DNA of 40,454 nucleotides from Steroidobacter sp. Its GTDB lineage: Bacteria; Pseudomonadota; Gammaproteobacteria; Steroidobacterales; Steroidobacteraceae. The notes under the pieces were generated by a model. That model did not search any database and was not told where the DNA came from. It saw only the letters and a list, made by a program, of their open reading frames with translations. Below are positions 19,394-26,442 of this stretch, piece after piece. The stretch covers positions 1 to 40,454 of the forward strand of contig JAICPY010000031.1 of the NCBI GenBank assembly GCA_025929585.1, given 5' to 3'. Within the stretch, counting starts at the first letter, position 1. Every line of letters starts with the position of its first letter. A program made the translations under genes and the position numbers.

Positions 19394-20041
19394 TCAGCAG
19401 AGCATCTGGAAACACATGATGGCGACGACTCGCTTTCGATTCATGGTGAGCGGCGCAATACGATGCGGGACCACTCCGCCATGAAACAGTAGGCTCTCGC
19501 CAGGCAAGAGCCCGATGCACTGTGTCGGTTTGGGTGTTGCACCTCGTAGCTCACCGAGCGGGGTCGTAAGGTGCTCGGGCCACGTTTCCAACACGCCACT
19601 GTCGGCGCTTCGATCGCTGTCGTAGAGACAGGTAATCAACGCGAGATCGCAGCCGCGAACGTCCCGATGCAGATCGAGGTGCGCCTGCGGCCCGTAGACC
19701 GAGTAGGTGGCGCGCGTGCCGCAGGGTCGCACGCGTGCATGCACTTCGTTCGCAAGGAACGAACTGAGAGCCGGCGCAAGAAATAAGCCGTCCTCGATCG
19801 AACCCCCTTCCACGGAAATGAGATGTCGCGCCGGTTCTCCACCGCGGACCTGCTCATCGTCTGCGCCCGGAGGGCAGTGCTCGATCCTGCGGTGTTGCGT
19901 TACTGCCTCGTGCAGCAACGCCTTTATCGTTTGAGCGTCTAACAACCCGTCGTAGACGCGCGCACCACCGTCTCGAAGCACTGGGCTATTGCCGACGCGT
20001 TCGATTTCTCGTTCGAGCTCGCAACGCGGGCAACATGTCAT
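19394..20041 (-). CDS. Probable 2-oxoglutarate/Fe(II) oxygenase
   Basis: 215 residues, last gene of a four-gene operon. Its ATG overlaps the upstream stop (ATGA). A candidate iron-binding triad is visible: HLDLHRDVRGCDLALITCLYD offers HxD as His121/Asp123 or His125/Asp127, and LLFHGGVVPHRIAPLTMNRKRV gives a distal His (187 or 193) with Arg202/204 placed to hold 2-oxoglutarate. The double-stranded beta-helix order fits prolyl-hydroxylase-like enzymes. The N-terminus has a cysteine cluster (Cys3, Cys4, Cys7) that could bind a metal. In this operon the obvious proline-rich candidate substrate is the tail of the subtilase. The assignment is by motif reading only, so another cupin-like role is possible. 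Substrate modification is inference. Confidence 0.62.
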   Translation of the reverse strand: MTCCPRCELEREIERVGNSPVLRDGGARVYDGLLDAQTIKALLHEAVTQHRRIEHCPPGADDEQVRGGEPARHLISVEGGSIEDGLFLAPALSSFLANEVHARVRPCGTRATYSVYGPQAHLDLHRDVRGCDLALITCLYDSDRSADSGVLETWPEHLTTPLGELRGATPKPTQCIGLLPGESLLFHGGVVPHRIAPLTMNRKRVVAIMCFQMLC

Positions 20042-20445
20042 GGTCCGAACCCAGACGGGCCGAATGCAAGCGGCTCGGAAAACGTTACGGTGCGCACGAG
20101 ACCGCGAACATCATCAGGAAGCGCGGCGACAGGAAGCTCTAACGATGATTTTCCTTCTGCGCCGCGCACCCGAATCGCACCATCACGACCTGCGTGCAGC
20201 TCGACGCGGAACACTTCGTTGAAATGCGACATCGTCGCTTCGATCGCGAAGCTATTGCCGACGAGATCAGCCACACGAAAGCCAAGGTTGGCGAAGGCTT
20301 GCCGCGCCGATTCGACCATCTGGTGCGGAGGTCGCAGCGCGTCGATATTGGAAGCGACAGCGCTTTGCACCGAGGTCGGTCCGTGCTCCAAGACAACGAG
20401 AGCGGCGACCACATTCGATGTCGCTACCGATTTAGGCGGAGGCAT
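20038..20445 (-). CDS. Stand-alone subtilase-prodomain-like small protein
   Basis: 135 residues. The frame also offers TTG two codons earlier, but GGGAGA lies only two bases from that TTG and nine from this ATG, so ATG is preferred. No signal peptide. Residues about 50-85 (ARQAFANLGFRVADLV, then FAIEATMSHFNEVF, RVEL) align by eye with the N-terminal prodomain of the subtilase in the same operon ([28 protein letters not shown]). It is therefore likely a free prodomain-like fold that might act as chaperone, inhibitor or substrate carrier in trans. The C-terminus ends in a Gly/Pro-rich EPLAFGPSGFGP. It overlaps the radical SAM gene by 14 bases and the oxygenase gene by 4, so all are translationally coupled. 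A precursor-peptide role is an alternative. Confidence 0.72.
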   Translation of the reverse strand: MPPPKSVATSNVVAALVVLEHGPTSVQSAVASNIDALRPPHQMVESARQAFANLGFRVADLVGNSFAIEATMSHFNEVFRVELHAGRDGAIRVRGAEGKSSLELPVAALPDDVRGLVRTVTFSEPLAFGPSGFGP

Positions 20446-22381
20446 GGGCAAGTTCTCCCGCCAGGTGGTTGGCCGTTACGGGTGCCACGGGTCGTTCGCG
20501 TCGGCTCGCGGCCTCGAGCCTCGGCCTGAGCGATGCGGGCATCAAGACGAGACTAAGGTATTGCTGCCGATCGCATAGAGCCAGCGAATGCCGAACGAGT
20601 CCATCGAGAAATCCCTGTACGTGACCCGCATCGAACGTGTGATCAGGATATTCGAGCGCCAATTTTTCCATGACGCTTTTCAGCGACCGAGTTTCGTCGA
20701 TGCATTCCAGAATCGTACGCTCATAGGCGGACAACCGCAGCAAGGGTGCTTCGGTTCCTTGTCTCGAATCGCGCACGTATAGCTCATCTCGGTGTTCGAC
20801 TCCTTGAAGCGTGCCGGGCACGCGATCTCTCAGTGCTTCGAGCCGCTCAGCGGCCACATGCGCAAGCGGACTCGGCTCAAATTCAGGCTGATAGGCAAAG
20901 TCGAAATAGTAGGCGACGCGGTCCAGACATAAGCCTTCCACTGGATAGAGGAATCGATACGGCGCGATGGGCTTCAGCTCGTGCAACCCGAACGCGTTCG
21001 CTTGCTCGAAATAAGGACTAAAGCGATCTAGTCGGATCGGTCCGCAGGCGCTCGCAAGCTGCAAATGGCGAATCTTGGGTAGCAGCGCGATGATTTCTTC
21101 GTAGTCTTCGTCAGCCTCGCCAGGAAATCCATACAGTAGGTTCCAATCGACCGCAATCGAATACTCGCGGCACCACTTGAGCAACTGTACGTTGCGAAGC
21201 GCCGTCGTCCCTTTACGCATCAAACCGAGCACGTGCGTGCTGAGAGACTCGACGCCAGGTTGGATGCGTGTGATGTGAGCGCGAGCGAGCGCTGCTACGT
21301 GATGACGTTTCAGGTTCGCCTTCACTTCATAGAAGATCTCACCAGGCAGGTCGAGCCTTTCGAGACTCGGCAGCACCGAGTCGAAGTATCTCATGTCGAG
21401 AATATTATCGACCGCCTCGAGCACTGGACATGGCCAGCGCTGCGTGAGCTCGGTGAGCTCGCTCAAGAAGCGGGCCGGCGACTTGCTGCGAAAACCCATC
21501 GTGTGGCCATTGAGCCCGCAGAAAGTGCAGTGGGATTTCGCGCCCCACCAGCAACCCCGCGAACTTTCAAAGACCAGTACGGGCGGTGCTTGCTGGGCGG
21601 CGGAACTGCAACTGCGAGCAGCGAAATAGTTGGAGAAGTCCGGCGTCGGCAGCGCATCCATGCGAGTGATCGGAGCGGCGGGGCCGGTGCTGATGGTTTC
21701 GCCTCTCTCGCGAAATACGATTCCGGGAATCCTTCGCAACTGGGTGGAGCGAGCAGTACTCGGCGCACGATGGGCTCGGATCAGAGCTGGAAAGGATTCA
21801 TCGGCTTCGCCCGAGCAAACATAGTCGACGAAGGGGAACGCGCGATGCAGTTCCAGGCCCATCGGCCCTTCCCAGTTCGCGCCGCCGAAAACGATCGCAG
21901 GTTTGCGCCGAAGCGCAGCCAGGCGTCTCGCCAAGGCGAGCGAAGCAATGTTCTGCTCGAATGTCGATGTGAAGCCCACCAGGTCGAAGTCGCTCCACGG
22001 CAGTGAGTTGAGCGAATGCATCAGGAACGGCTCCACATAGCGACGCAGAGAGAAGGTCTCCGCGATGCGTTGCTCGGGTAGATGCCATTGCTTGCGCAGA
22101 ATTTCCTCGACGTAAGCAGCATCCCGCGCCGCATCTGCGCCATAGAGCGCCTCGGTGAAAACCCATTCGCCGACGAACGCGACATGTGGAAGCTCGTGCG
22201 CGATCCAACGGTAGCGTTCTGCGCCGAGATATTCGGCGAAGCGCATGTTGAGGTAGTACACCTCGCTTGCGATTCCTTCGCGATCGAGCGTCGCCTTCAA
22301 CAAACTGAGGCCGAGCGTGGGACGCTCTAGCGCGCCCCACGGCATGTGAATCAGTGCGACACGTTTCGTTGTACGAGGCAC
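20432..22381 (-). CDS. B12-binding radical SAM enzyme, RiPP maturation radical SAM protein 1 type
   Basis: 649 residues. The start is GTG with a strong AAGGAAGGA site. Order: N-terminal cobalamin-binding-like domain (VALIHMPWGALERPTLGLSL; DFDLVGFTSTFEQN; IVFGGANWEGPMG; DYVCSGEADESFPAL), then the radical SAM core with SSRGCWWGAKSHCTFCGLNG. There the cluster cysteines are 277, 285 and 288, a CX7CX2C spacing instead of CX3CX2C. That spacing and the surrounding residues are the mark of the family called RiPP maturation radical SAM protein 1, whose members are often C-methyltransferases. Later core motifs are FYEVKANL, IQPGVESLSTHVL and WNLLYGFPGE. A C-terminal extension (about 530-649) may recognise the substrate. 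It starts 25 bases after the subtilase stop, so it is probably cotranscribed. Confidence 0.9.
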   Translation of the reverse strand: MPRTTKRVALIHMPWGALERPTLGLSLLKATLDREGIASEVYYLNMRFAEYLGAERYRWIAHELPHVAFVGEWVFTEALYGADAARDAAYVEEILRKQWHLPEQRIAETFSLRRYVEPFLMHSLNSLPWSDFDLVGFTSTFEQNIASLALARRLAALRRKPAIVFGGANWEGPMGLELHRAFPFVDYVCSGEADESFPALIRAHRAPSTARSTQLRRIPGIVFRERGETISTGPAAPITRMDALPTPDFSNYFAARSCSSAAQQAPPVLVFESSRGCWWGAKSHCTFCGLNGHTMGFRSKSPARFLSELTELTQRWPCPVLEAVDNILDMRYFDSVLPSLERLDLPGEIFYEVKANLKRHHVAALARAHITRIQPGVESLSTHVLGLMRKGTTALRNVQLLKWCREYSIAVDWNLLYGFPGEADEDYEEIIALLPKIRHLQLASACGPIRLDRFSPYFEQANAFGLHELKPIAPYRFLYPVEGLCLDRVAYYFDFAYQPEFEPSPLAHVAAERLEALRDRVPGTLQGVEHRDELYVRDSRQGTEAPLLRLSAYERTILECIDETRSLKSVMEKLALEYPDHTFDAGHVQGFLDGLVRHSLALCDRQQYLSLVLMPASLRPRLEAASRRERPVAPVTANHLAGELAHASA

Positions 22382-22406
22382 GATCCTTCCTTCGACATCA
22401 TTGTCG

Positions 22407-24281
22407 CTAAAGGTTGGACGGCTCGATCTTGCCTTGCACGATCATATCCTCGAGTGCGCGAACGTCCTCCGCCGTTATAGGCTGGCCTTCCAGTTGACTT
22501 TGCTGTGTTTCCCGCATCGCGGATGTCGGTCCCACTGGTCCGACCGGTCGGATCGGCTGTACCGGCACGACAGGTTGTATGGGTCGAATCGGTTCGACCG
22601 GTTGGACCGGCCGGATTGGCTCAACCGGTTGAATAGGTTGAATGGGTCGTATCGGCTCGACCGGTCGAACGGGACGGACTGGTTCCACGGGTTGAATGGG
22701 TCTGATCGGTTCGACGGGCTCGATCGGCCTAATGGGCCTGATCGGCTCGATCGGTCCAATCGGGCGAATCGGACCCAGACAGCGGATCTTTGCAACCAGC
22801 GCCGCCGCGGTTGCGTTGACGAGACCGGCACCGGTTGCGAGGTCCGTACCGGCTGCCGCGGATGCGCCACTGGAAGCGGGATTGCAATTGCCGGTCGTCA
22901 CATCGATCGCGGTGCGCACAAGGATGTCGCGCACCTCGGCTGGTGTAAGACGCGGGCATGCTTGCTTGACCAATGCGGCCGCGCCGGCAAGCTGGGGCGC
23001 CGCGGCGGAAGTACCGCTAATCGCAGCCCACCCGTCATCGGTCGCCGTCTCATCGCCATTTGGGTGCGTGCCGCCCGCGGATCCGGTATCGATGGCGCAG
23101 CCGGGCTGCAGCGGCAACATAATGTAGGCGGCACGCGGCAGCATGCCCACCAAACCACATAGATCGGGAGCGTTGCGTCCCGAATAGATCGGGCTTGCAA
23201 AGCCGCTCGCGTAATCGGACGCACGCAATGTACCGTCAGGTTGGATGAAGACGCCGCCTGCGGAGATCACATCCGGATGTTGGCCAGGAAAGCCGAAATG
23301 TCCGTTGCCCGCGGCGAAGATCACGACGATGCCGCGCGCAACGGCGTCGGCGATTGCGATCGCTAATGTTTGATTGGCCGGCGAGAGAGGTCCGCTGCGA
23401 ACATCGCTTCCCCAACTGCAGGTGATGATGTCCGGGCTCAAGCCGACTGCGGCGTTGAACGCGGCCGTGCTGTTGGCGAAATTCATTTTCACCGGCAGCA
23501 GTTCGGCATCTGGTGCCACCGCGAAGATGTTGGCGGATTCCGCTGTGCCGTGCCCGTTGTCATCCACTGCCGGATCCGATGTGGCGGGCGCGAGGGTCAC
23601 TGGCGCGACGCGATAACCGCGAGCGGCAAAGAACGGATGCGCAAAGTGGCCACTGTCGACCATCGCGACTCGAACTCCTCGACCCGTCGTGCCGGAGCGA
23701 TGCGCCTGATCGGCATTACAACCGAGCGACACATCGTGAGGCACTTCGAGATGCCAGTACGCGACCTTCGGAGCATACGGCAACGCAGCGAAGGGATATC
23801 GAGGCTCCTCGATAGCGACGCCTTCGATCAAACTTTCGAAGGCAGTTCCCTGCGTCGATATGAGCCCGAAGCGCGGCGCGCTCTCGGCAGTGAAGAAGGT
23901 CGCTGTGTCCACTACGCCACCCGACTTGCGCGTCGACAGCTCCTCAGCGATCACCTTCGTCTTGAACGCCACCTCGTAAACCTTGATCGGTGCCGCGATA
24001 TTGATCGTGTAGGGCGAGATCTGAAGGATCTGGAATCCTGCTTCCTCCAGACGAGCAGCAGCGCGCGCGATTGTCTGCTCATCGGACATGTAGTTCGAGA
24101 CGATGTTTGGGTCGATGCGTGCAGACATATCGAACATCGACATGCCGCCGACAGATCTCGGCGAGACCTCTGCAAACAGCAGTGGTGGGATGGTCGGTCT
24201 GCCCGCTGCCTTCCTGGTTCGACGCGATTGCGCCTTGCTCTGTTTGGTTCGTGCGGCCTTGCGAGGTGCTCGGGTAGCCAT
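22407..24281 (-). CDS. S8 subtilase with X-Pro-Ile/Val repeat tail
   Basis: 624 residues. ATG at 24281 is chosen because GGGAGGA sits seven bases upstream; the frame runs on to 24347. Layout: basic N-terminus ([17 protein letters not shown]), prodomain about 35-150, then the S8 catalytic domain with Asp209 (VAMVDSGHF), His244 (DDNGHGTAE), oxyanion Asn326 (FAAGNGHFG) and Ser425 ([13 protein letters not shown]). Residues 503-586 are 27 consecutive X-Pro-(Ile/Val) tripeptides with X mostly Arg, Gln or Glu, plus one Gly-Pro-Thr. Residues 587-624 are a hydrophilic helical end ([18 protein letters not shown]). No classical signal peptide is seen. The tail may be a rigid spacer, a binding surface or the modification target of the operon's radical SAM and oxygenase enzymes. 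It is clearly not a normal extracellular subtilisin. Confidence 0.9.
22524..22775 (-). repeat. Coding repeat for 28 proline tripeptides in the subtilase tail
   Basis: A 252-base stretch encoding X-Pro-Ile or X-Pro-Val 27 times and Gly-Pro-Thr once. A nine-residue supra-unit, PVEPIRPIQ, recurs with small changes. At DNA level the units are degenerate (mixed codons for Pro, Ile, Val and Arg), so the peptide pattern appears kept by selection and not only by recent slippage. It should form an extended polyproline-II-like rod with alternating charged faces. Confidence 0.93.
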
Positions 24282-24607: not shown

Positions 24608-25348
24608 TCATCGACCGAGACGAGCAAATAGCGCATCTTTGAATCTTCGACTCATCCGCAGCTCGCGGCCACTCGCGAGCTTGACGTCATAGTCTCCTTT
24701 GAAGAGAGGCGTGAAGGACTGAATGAAAGTGAGATTAACGGCAGCTGACTTGTGAATTCGAACGAAACGCTGCTCTCCGAGCTGTGCAAGTAGGTCTTGT
24801 AATGTTCGCCGCAGTAGATAGTGGTTGGAGCCCGAGTAGACGTGAACGTAGTTATCGTCTGCTTCGAGAGATTCGATACTCGATGTATCAATGAGCCTTA
24901 GTATCTCGCCCTGAGGCACAAGCAAGCGCTCGGAGGCGCCGGACTGAGATCGAGCCACCGAAACAGCCGCTTGCTGCGGAGCTCTATCGCGGATGCGTTC
25001 GCGCACGCGCGTCAACGATCGTAGTAACCGGTCTTTGTCGTAGGGTTTCAGAAGATAGTCGATCGCATTCAATTCGAATGCGCTGATCGCGTGCTCGTCG
25101 AATGCCGTTACGAAAACGATCAATGGCGCAGTATCGGCTTCCAACTGTGCAGCAACTTCCAAGCCGCTCATGCCGGGCATTTGGATATCCAGCAAAGCAA
25201 CCTCGGGTCGAAAGCTCTCGATTTGCGCGGCGGCTTCAGTGCCAGTGACGCACTGAGCAACCAACTCGACATCTGCCTGTTCGGCGAGCCAGCGAGCAAG
25301 CTTGTCGCGCGCCGGTTTCTCATCATCCGCGATCAGTACACGCATCAT
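24608..25348 (-). CDS. LytTR-family response regulator
   Basis: 246 residues from the ATG that overlaps the kinase stop (ATGA); the frame is open seven codons further but those lie within the kinase gene. The receiver domain has acidic residues DDE at 8-10, phospho-acceptor Asp54 (LLDIQMPGMSG), VTAFDEHAISAF and Lys in YLLKPYDKDR. The C-terminal LytTR DNA-binding domain reads LEADDNYVHVYSG, RTLQDLLAQL, FVRIHKSAAVNL and the closing RELRMSRRFKDAL. It is the AlgR/LytR class that binds direct repeats upstream of its targets. Its partner is the histidine kinase immediately upstream. Targets are unknown; the adjacent modification operon is a candidate only by position. Confidence 0.93.
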   Translation of the reverse strand: MMRVLIADDEKPARDKLARWLAEQADVELVAQCVTGTEAAAQIESFRPEVALLDIQMPGMSGLEVAAQLEADTAPLIVFVTAFDEHAISAFELNAIDYLLKPYDKDRLLRSLTRVRERIRDRAPQQAAVSVARSQSGASERLLVPQGEILRLIDTSSIESLEADDNYVHVYSGSNHYLLRRTLQDLLAQLGEQRFVRIHKSAAVNLTFIQSFTPLFKGDYDVKLASGRELRMSRRFKDALFARLGR

Positions 25349-26442
25349 GAAGGCTGCTCCGCCCACGGAATCAGCACGCGCACATCACCGCTGGTGCGGT
25401 CTGATGTGAACTCCAAGACACCGGCCGCGCCGTAATGAAGTTGCATTCGCGATCGACAGTTTCGCAAACCCACCCCCTCGCCCGCGACGGGTGTCACCTC
25501 GCCGATGTTGATGATTCGCAGCTCTAGGTAATCGCCAATGCGTTTCGCGCTTACCGTGATGCGAGCAGGCGTGCTCGCGTTTTCGACACCGTGCTTGAAG
25601 GCGTTCTCGAGTAGAGGCTGCAGCATCATCGTCGGCAGCATTGCTGCCTCGGTTTCTGGTTCGATTTCCCATTCTAAAGTGACTCGATCCTCGAATCGTT
25701 GCTCCATGATGCGTCCATAGAGCCGCAGCAGATCCAATTCGGACTTCAGCGTCGTGAGCTCCTCCTGATCGGCTCGCAGGCTCGCTCGCAATAGATCCGC
25801 AAGTTGGTTCAGAAGACGATCGGCGCGAACGATGTCGATCTGCATGACGGAAGAGATCGTATTGAGCGCGTTGAAGAGGAAGTGCGGTCGAAGTTGGGTT
25901 TTGAGTTGCACCAGCTGAGCCTGCGCGAGAGATCGTTGCAGCTCGGCAAGCCGGCGTTGCTGTGTCTGCCAATGCGAGAAAGATTCGAGTGCGAACAGAA
26001 TGCCAAGCCATAAACCCAGGAAGAGCCAGAGCTTGAGCGACTCGTACAGGAACACCCACGGCCAAGGTTCATGCTGGTAAGCGCGGCCCGCGAGGCTGTA
26101 GATGCCATGCCTCAAGGCATAGGTTACGCATACAAACACGATCGCGACGATCGGAAACCATCGGCATTGCCGCCAGAACCAGCGGAGCGGATGATCCAAG
26201 TATTGCTCCGCGTGCCTGCGGTCACGCCAGAACATCCACAACCACAAACTCGCAACCGCTGCGGACGTGCCCATCCACACAAACGGCTCCCACCATCGAA
26301 TGCCGGGATGCTCCCAGTGTTCCTGAATCTCGATGACGAGCATGAGACCGAAGAACAGCACCCAAAGGGACACCAGCACGCGCAGCTTCTGTCTTTCGGA
26401 GAATTCGTAAGTAGACGGCGCGGTGGTGAAAGTCTCGAGCAT
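25345..26442 (-). CDS. LytS/AlgZ-type sensor histidine kinase
   Basis: 365 residues. Four hydrophobic segments (about 21-40, 53-72, 95-118 and 130-152) form the membrane sensor. The kinase core is of the His_kinase (LytS/YpdA) class: the phospho-acceptor is His187 in QLRPHFLFNALNTISS, the N box is QPLLENAFKHGVEN and the G box is GEGVGLRNCRSRM. It shares an ATGA overlap with the response regulator, so the pair is translationally coupled. The signal sensed is unknown and there is no large periplasmic domain. In Pseudomonas the equivalent AlgZ/AlgR pair controls surface polysaccharide and pili, but that is not evidence for the same targets here. Confidence 0.93.
   Translation of the reverse strand: MLETFTTAPSTYEFSERQKLRVLVSLWVLFFGLMLVIEIQEHWEHPGIRWWEPFVWMGTSAAVASLWLWMFWRDRRHAEQYLDHPLRWFWRQCRWFPIVAIVFVCVTYALRHGIYSLAGRAYQHEPWPWVFLYESLKLWLFLGLWLGILFALESFSHWQTQQRRLAELQRSLAQAQLVQLKTQLRPHFLFNALNTISSVMQIDIVRADRLLNQLADLLRASLRADQEELTTLKSELDLLRLYGRIMEQRFEDRVTLEWEIEPETEAAMLPTMMLQPLLENAFKHGVENASTPARITVSAKRIGDYLELRIINIGEVTPVAGEGVGLRNCRSRMQLHYGAAGVLEFTSDRTSGDVRVLIPWAEQPS

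Follow-up and report, generated by a model that had tools for sequence, protein, structure and literature searches.

Among the published systems that we have found, the TVG pathway (TvgABCDE) and the Qhp operon come nearest in logic to the gene cassette described here, and neither of them has a protease that itself carries the sequence to be modified. The TVG precursor is a peptide with TVGG repeats, in which a radical S-adenosylmethionine (rSAM) enzyme makes cyclopropylglycine (PMC9062424). Its repeating aliphatic core motif and the clustering of genes for an rSAM enzyme, an Fe/2-oxoglutarate (2OG) oxidase and a peptidase/transporter resemble our locus, although the word cobalamin is absent from the main text of that paper (PMC9062424). 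The Qhp operon also combines an rSAM enzyme (QhpD), a monooxygenase (the flavin enzyme QhpG) and a subtilisin-like protease (QhpE, cytoplasmic and acting in a single turnover) that work on a protein, but QhpE processes QhpC and does not carry the modified sequence (PMC7876137). Methylation of carbon atoms in peptide residues by rSAM methyltransferases is known from the polytheonamide and bottromycin systems, the residues modified in bottromycin including Val and Pro, although the substrates there are peptide precursors and not, as proposed here, the tail of a protease (PMC11285071). Finally, the stand-alone propeptide-like proteins SUB1-ProM and I9 inhibit subtilases, and SUB1-ProM is a free prodomain-like protein encoded beside subtilase genes (PMC6993865). 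No description of the present gene set was among the matches listed in the open-licence PubMed Central literature, which leaves subscription journals mostly outside.

The stretch of DNA analysed (the window) is the 40,454-nt contig JAICPY010000031.1 of Steroidobacter sp. (GCA_025929585.1). Four genes on its minus strand, spanning 24281 down to 19394, code in this order for an S8 subtilase with a C-terminal Pro-Ile/Val tail, a B12-dependent rSAM enzyme, a free prodomain and a 2OG/Fe(II) oxygenase. The four open reading frames (ORFs) were confirmed, and their coordinates bear out the arrangement described in an earlier, sequence-only reading, with spacings of 25, -14 and -4 bases. The rSAM enzyme is a clear member of TIGR03975 (rSAM_ocin_1), a family of C-methyltransferases that mature ribosomally synthesized and post-translationally modified peptides (RiPPs). 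Relatives are accompanied by short Nif11-type or pheganomycin-family precursors in three annotated plasmid records (71 records matched, four were examined and three of these were annotated), whereas the candidate substrate here is the tail of a 624-residue protease and the cassette adds a free prodomain and an oxygenase. The enzyme fits the known family, and we have filed the whole cassette as a variant form of RiPP-type modification, in which the tail of the subtilase is the likely substrate of the neighbouring enzymes.

The tail and the enzymes encoded beside it

The subtilase gene (22407..24281, minus strand, like all window features below) ends in a tail with a strict period of three residues (about residues 501-585; 22527..22781). 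Between residues 501 and 601, Pro precedes 27 of the 28 Ile or Val residues and is itself followed by Ile or Val in 27 of 29 cases, with autocorrelation maxima for Pro at 3 and 6 and a Pro period of exactly 3. When the tails of 13 cassettes (the window and the 12 loci described below) were pooled, the 328 residues following Pro comprised 137 Ile, 67 Pro, 56 Val, two Leu and no Met. This excess of Ile and Val over Leu and Met (193 versus 2) is one of the reasons to regard the tail as a likely substrate, and since Leu is nearly absent after Pro the beta-branched residues would be the probable target. A Pro-Ile/Val repeat score of 10 or more was reached by 16 of the 5619 ORFs at 55 loci (including L023, the window's own copy), and these were 12 cassette subtilases, three carriers near rSAM enzymes of a sister clade (L042, L043 and L046) and one opposite-strand frame. 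The latter (L061:7415-7948, minus strand) lies on the strand opposite to the TIGR03975 gene and just before it, and might come from a Gly-rich gene read in antisense. Past the tail, after a spacer, all 13 rows have an end resembling L/I-S/T-x-x-D-I/V under a permissive pattern (consensus LSxEDVxALExMI; residues 602-624, 22410..22478 in the window), a possible follower for the rSAM enzyme.

The rSAM enzyme (649 aa, 20432..22381) matches the model TIGR03975, 'RiPP maturation radical SAM C-methyltransferase', over its full length with 642.2 bits, the cut-off being 281.85, and methyl transfer is predicted from this membership. The CX7CX2C signature noticed earlier is real, its cysteines C277, C285 and C288 being unchanged in the 13 aligned rows. 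A B12-binding domain matches all 13 rows at a loose limit (25.8 bits in the window, gathering score 32.1). The structural model (predicted local distance difference test score, pLDDT, of 85.1, falling below 50 in part of the cluster motif region, residues 278-295) is similar to TsrM, TokK, OxsB, CysS and MgmA (TMq 0.42-0.48). Residues 525-610 (20552..20809) are modelled as three strands and three helices, and this topology, taken together with weak PqqD matches (TIGR03859, E 0.049; PF05402 in one of the 13 rows, E 0.012), suggests that the C-terminal part of the enzyme might contain a RiPP recognition element. The oxygenase (215 aa, 19394..20041) has the HxD...H metal triad and the 2OG-binding Arg (H125, D127, H193 and R204) unchanged in the 12 aligned rows. 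The profile 2OG-FeII_Oxy_3 scores 16.9 bits with the window protein, under the cut-off of 27, and matches seven of the 12 rows, with a best E of 9.7e-5.

A scan of genome contigs for the rSAM enzyme gave 45 loci, in 12 of which (L031-L041 and L062) the genes of the subtilase, the rSAM enzyme and the prodomain follow each other in this order on one strand, with the oxygenase last in nine of the 12. The co-occurrence that the sequence-only reading had proposed to look for among rSAM homologues does exist. The labelled phyla are Pseudomonadota, Acidobacteriota, Chloroflexota, Deinococcota, Thermodesulfobacteriota and Aminicenantes, the hosts being members of Burkholderiales, Reyranella, Pyrinomonadaceae, Bryobacterales (two), another Acidobacteria, Chloroflexi, Anaerolineae, Deinococcales, Desulfobulbaceae and Aminicenantes, plus one unclassified; all but the unclassified one are metagenome-assembled genomes (MAGs). 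The three cassettes without a detected oxygenase belong to the Anaerolineae, Desulfobulbaceae and Aminicenantes MAGs. These are mostly anaerobic lineages, in keeping with an oxygen-dependent step that can be dispensed with.

For the rSAM phylogeny we have used 35 rows (31 chosen loci, the window and three plasmid records), leaving out the partial enzymes of L028, L030, L058 and L069 together with L023 and trimming the over-long 5' ends of L041 and L074. The 13 cassette enzymes form one side of a branch with support 100/99, and every one of them has a subtilase encoded next door. Distances between the rSAM enzymes correlate with those between the subtilases (r 0.87, a value reached in none of 2000 permutations). 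With hosts as scattered as these, the cassette probably moves between them as a unit. It is also rare. A profile of the subtilase found one genome out of 398 in the phylum of the window, namely its own, one out of 350 in that of genome G460 (G460 itself), and six out of 396 in that of G467, i.e., G467 and G474, already known, and four others.

No small ORF was common to three or more of the 13 cassettes in flanks of up to 2.5 kb (890 ORFs; the available flank is shorter upstream in L033 and L034 and downstream in L038), and a short precursor made of leader and core, the usual mark of a RiPP, was not found in these flanks, farther ones not having been searched. The idea of a small precursor hidden near the operon was rejected on these grounds, and the lack of such a gene is a further reason to see the tail as the likely substrate. 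The earlier statement that no small precursor is seen was right for the window locus, and a small peptide does occur in the sister rSAM clade. A fifth conserved gene was rejected as well, since no gene outside the four was common to more than three of the 13 cassettes among the 19 loci compared; an ORF for an ABC-type ATPase, named by eye, occurs in L032, L034 and L040. Beyond the four genes, the largest common set was one of glycosyltransferase/SPASM genes in five sister-clade loci, followed by sets in four and then three loci.

Untailed relatives and other Pro-Ile carriers

A way to look at the significance of the tail is to compare subtilases with and without it. Five genomes (L084-L088) contain related subtilases on which no Pro-Ile tail was seen, one case being uncertain, and in none of the five did any protein exceed the TIGR03975 cut-off; the rSAM and oxygenase profiles found nothing in the five fetched stretches either. 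The proposal of the sequence-only reading that the proline-rich tail is a substrate gains from this comparison, as tail and rSAM enzyme are found together and the untailed relatives are without the enzyme. In the subtilase of L084 (L084:8301-10733) the C-terminal region is of another kind and matches H_lectin under the cut-off, and the N-terminal region contains a helix-hairpin-helix motif.

The second comparison is provided by the sister clade of the cassette rSAM enzymes, which has six members (support 100/99) and goes with other Pro-Ile sequences, again making the tail a likely substrate. The carriers are a peptide of 80 aa in L042, one of 97 aa in L043, which also occurs in the genomes of L045 (at L100) and L047 (at L099), and a different subtilase in L046 (L046:1715-3736; Peptidase_S8, 147 bits) with a Thr-rich Pro-Ile tail of 133 residues. 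In L042, L043 and L046 the carriers are located about 4-5.5 kb before the rSAM gene and do not adjoin it, and a carrier could not be established in the genome of L044 (G470), where a match had an E of 0.0018 and 24% identity. Nonsynonymous divergence (dN) of the 97-aa peptide was 0.07-0.09 over three pairs and synonymous divergence (dS) 0.25-1.6. All of its 20 Pro columns are invariant, with variation in eight of 35 Ile/Val columns and 10 of 42 others. These values suggest purifying selection on the peptide. Glycosyltransferase and SPASM radical SAM genes are found between the Pro-Ile carrier and the B12 rSAM gene in L043, L042 and L046, so the peptide of the sister clade may be glycosylated too. 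A Pfam run, done on L043 only, found in L043:2806-7989 a GT9 family protein, a frame fusing a glycosyltransferase to a radical-SAM-SPASM protein, and a further SPASM radical SAM protein.

The protease and its two prodomains

The catalytic domain of the window subtilase (residues 200-467, 22881..23684, by Pfam) matches Peptidase_S8 (PF00082) with 88.7 bits (cut-off 21.8), and D209, H244, N326 and S425 are unchanged in the 13 aligned rows. We take D209, H244 and S425 to be the catalytic triad and N326 the oxyanion residue. The protein does not reach the cut-offs of the models for QhpE (40.5 bits with NF049966, cut-off 165) and for cyanobactin proteases of the PatA/PatG type (14.2 bits with TIGR03895, cut-off 421). 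Pairwise identity is 72% in the catalytic domain, 53% in the prodomain, 43% in the tail and 38% in the end past it. The N-terminus is a basic stretch where no signal peptide was seen (by eye, without a prediction program), from which we infer a cytoplasmic location.

The free prodomain protein (135 aa, 20038..20445) had no Pfam or NCBIfam match of its own. A profile comparison with hhalign, however, aligned it with the N-terminal region of the subtilase over 121 columns (probability 97.2%, E 3e-11, versus probabilities of 0.6-1% in three control comparisons). The prodomain of the protease itself occupies about residues 35-170 (23772..24179). The relation is visible by profile comparison only, pairwise BLASTP between the two proteins giving nothing. 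Likewise, a sequence search of the PDB gave nothing with the prodomain profile and a chance-level match with the window protein alone. The structural model (pLDDT 85.6) had as its three best Foldseek matches the pro-kumamolisin 1t1e (E 6.6e-4, TMq 0.59), the only one under E 0.001, and the TPP1 precursors 3edy (1.7e-3) and 3ee6 (3.2e-3). Pro-kuma_activ was matched by three of the 13 free-prodomain rows (best E 2e-4) and weakly by the N-terminal region of two of the 13 subtilases (best E 0.014), in neither case by the window's own. The 135-residue protein, already taken for a free prodomain in the sequence-only reading, is thus of the sedolisin type and paralogous to the prodomain of the subtilase. 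In this it differs from SUB1-ProM and I9, its model being nearest to sedolisin prodomains (pro-kumamolisin and TPP1).

Relatives of the free prodomain also adjoin three of the five subtilases without rSAM enzyme, clearly in L087 (E 4.4e-16), where the gene directly precedes that of the subtilase, and weakly in L088 (E 1.1e-4) and L084 (E 0.005); none was found beside the other two in the fetched stretches, and phmmer with the window protein found none in the sister-clade loci. Given its identity and these relatives, the free protein most likely belongs with the protease, where it would act in trans as an inhibitor or chaperone, by analogy with SUB1-ProM and the I9 inhibitors (PMC6993865). Its Gly/Pro-rich end had been considered as a second candidate peptide. 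This part of the earlier proposal found no support and the protein was rejected as a precursor, because P125, F128, G129 and P130 at its C-terminal end are unchanged in the 13 rows, profile and fold identify it as a prodomain, and it has relatives in genomes without the rSAM enzyme. In alignment A2, which holds these rows, some of the starts were chosen by us and the L031 row begins without a start codon.

The tail as a proposed substrate, and the alternatives

We have fair confidence in a cassette made of two modules. The protease module would be the S8 subtilase, gated by its own N-terminal prodomain and by the second, free one of the same kind, and the modification module the Pro-Ile/Val tail with the B12-dependent rSAM C-methyltransferase and the 2OG/Fe(II) oxygenase. 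In such a scheme the prodomains, in cis and in trans, would keep the protease inactive while the rSAM enzyme binds it, perhaps with its PqqD-like C-terminal region gripping the LSxEDVxALExMI end. The enzyme would then C-methylate the tail, either on the beta-branched residue that follows Pro or on Pro, and the oxygenase would hydroxylate the tail where oxygen is available. Once free of prodomains, the protease would either work with a hardened, rod-like tail or cut the tail loose. The notion of a protease modified at its own tail was already put forward in the sequence-only reading and is favoured by the comparisons above. We lean slightly towards a more specific version, where the protease is a RiPP-type precursor gated by two prodomains, and the neighbouring enzymes C-methylate one beta-branched residue of its tail after another and hydroxylate the tail. 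In this version the Pro-Ile core would have changed carriers (two different subtilases and a free peptide) without parting from related rSAM enzymes. If the proposal holds, radical SAM chemistry of the peptide type would reach a protease tail, by way of a compact cassette present in several phyla, and a repeating aliphatic substrate would be added to those of the B12 radical SAM methyltransferases. How a protease spares a modifiable peptide carried on itself, and what repeated Pro-(methyl-Ile) sequences do, would become testable.

Several observations weigh against this proposal. The association of tail and rSAM enzyme is partly a matter of ascertainment, because it was the rSAM enzyme that led to 12 of the 13 tailed subtilases, and the four tailed matches of the subtilase-based searches (G000, G467, G474 and G460) were all in cassette genomes already known. 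The five genomes with untailed relatives do hold other radical SAM matches under the cut-off, the best with 124 bits, and past the catalytic domain of L086 the sequence is a run of N that could hide a tail. The join of the sister clade to the cassette clade has moderate support (85/78). The tails are uneven, with Pro before only 5 of 17 Ile or Val residues in L036 and 5 of 13 in L062, the latter being the thirteenth tail and scoring under 10. Pro-Val repeats also arise outside cassettes, and five of 1705 ORFs from loci fetched in other ways (L004, L005, L007, L008 and L015), several picked for their resemblance to the tail, reached the score of 10, although some of these look like Gly-X-Y repeats read in antisense. 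Little can thus be concluded from the repeat as such, and more weight falls on the finding that in 13 rows it is fused in frame to a conserved subtilase. The case for a follower is thin too, the end past the tail being less conserved than the tail itself (pairwise identity 0.38) and the PqqD evidence weak.

The release of the tail, one of the two endings left in the favoured explanation, could be the whole point of the system. The subtilase would then be a giant self-processing RiPP-type precursor, with its body as leader, its tail as core and a self-released peptide as product. We think this somewhat unlikely. The stand-alone peptides of 80-97 residues near sister-clade rSAM enzymes indicate that the repeat can form a product of its own, and tails of this sort are present on two different subtilases. 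That a subtilisin-like protease can work alongside an rSAM enzyme in a single turnover has a precedent in QhpE (PMC7876137). On the other hand, no conserved cleavage site was seen in the alignment (by eye, without a program), and no additional gene, the ABC-type ATPase included, is common to more than three of the 13 loci.

Pro-rich linkers are common in secreted enzymes, and the tail could be just that, a structural element, with the rSAM enzyme and the oxygenase acting elsewhere, for example on the free prodomain, whose gene sits between theirs and whose C-terminus is conserved. We think this unlikely, given that relatives of the free prodomain accompany three of the five subtilases without rSAM enzyme (two of them weak matches) and that phmmer with the window protein detects none at the sister-clade loci, which do have Pro-Ile repeats. 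Highly improbable, in our opinion, is that the operon has come about by chance and that the rSAM enzyme acts on a small precursor of the conventional kind, encoded somewhere else in the genome. The precursors adjoining other TIGR03975 enzymes in the plasmid records would give it some basis, but all 13 enzymes of the branch have a subtilase next door and their flanks share no small ORF, distant precursors not having been searched.

The cassette of the window has neighbours with no counterpart among the genes common to at least three of the compared loci. Directly upstream, on the same strand (24608-26442), are a LytTR response regulator and a histidine kinase of the His_kinase family.

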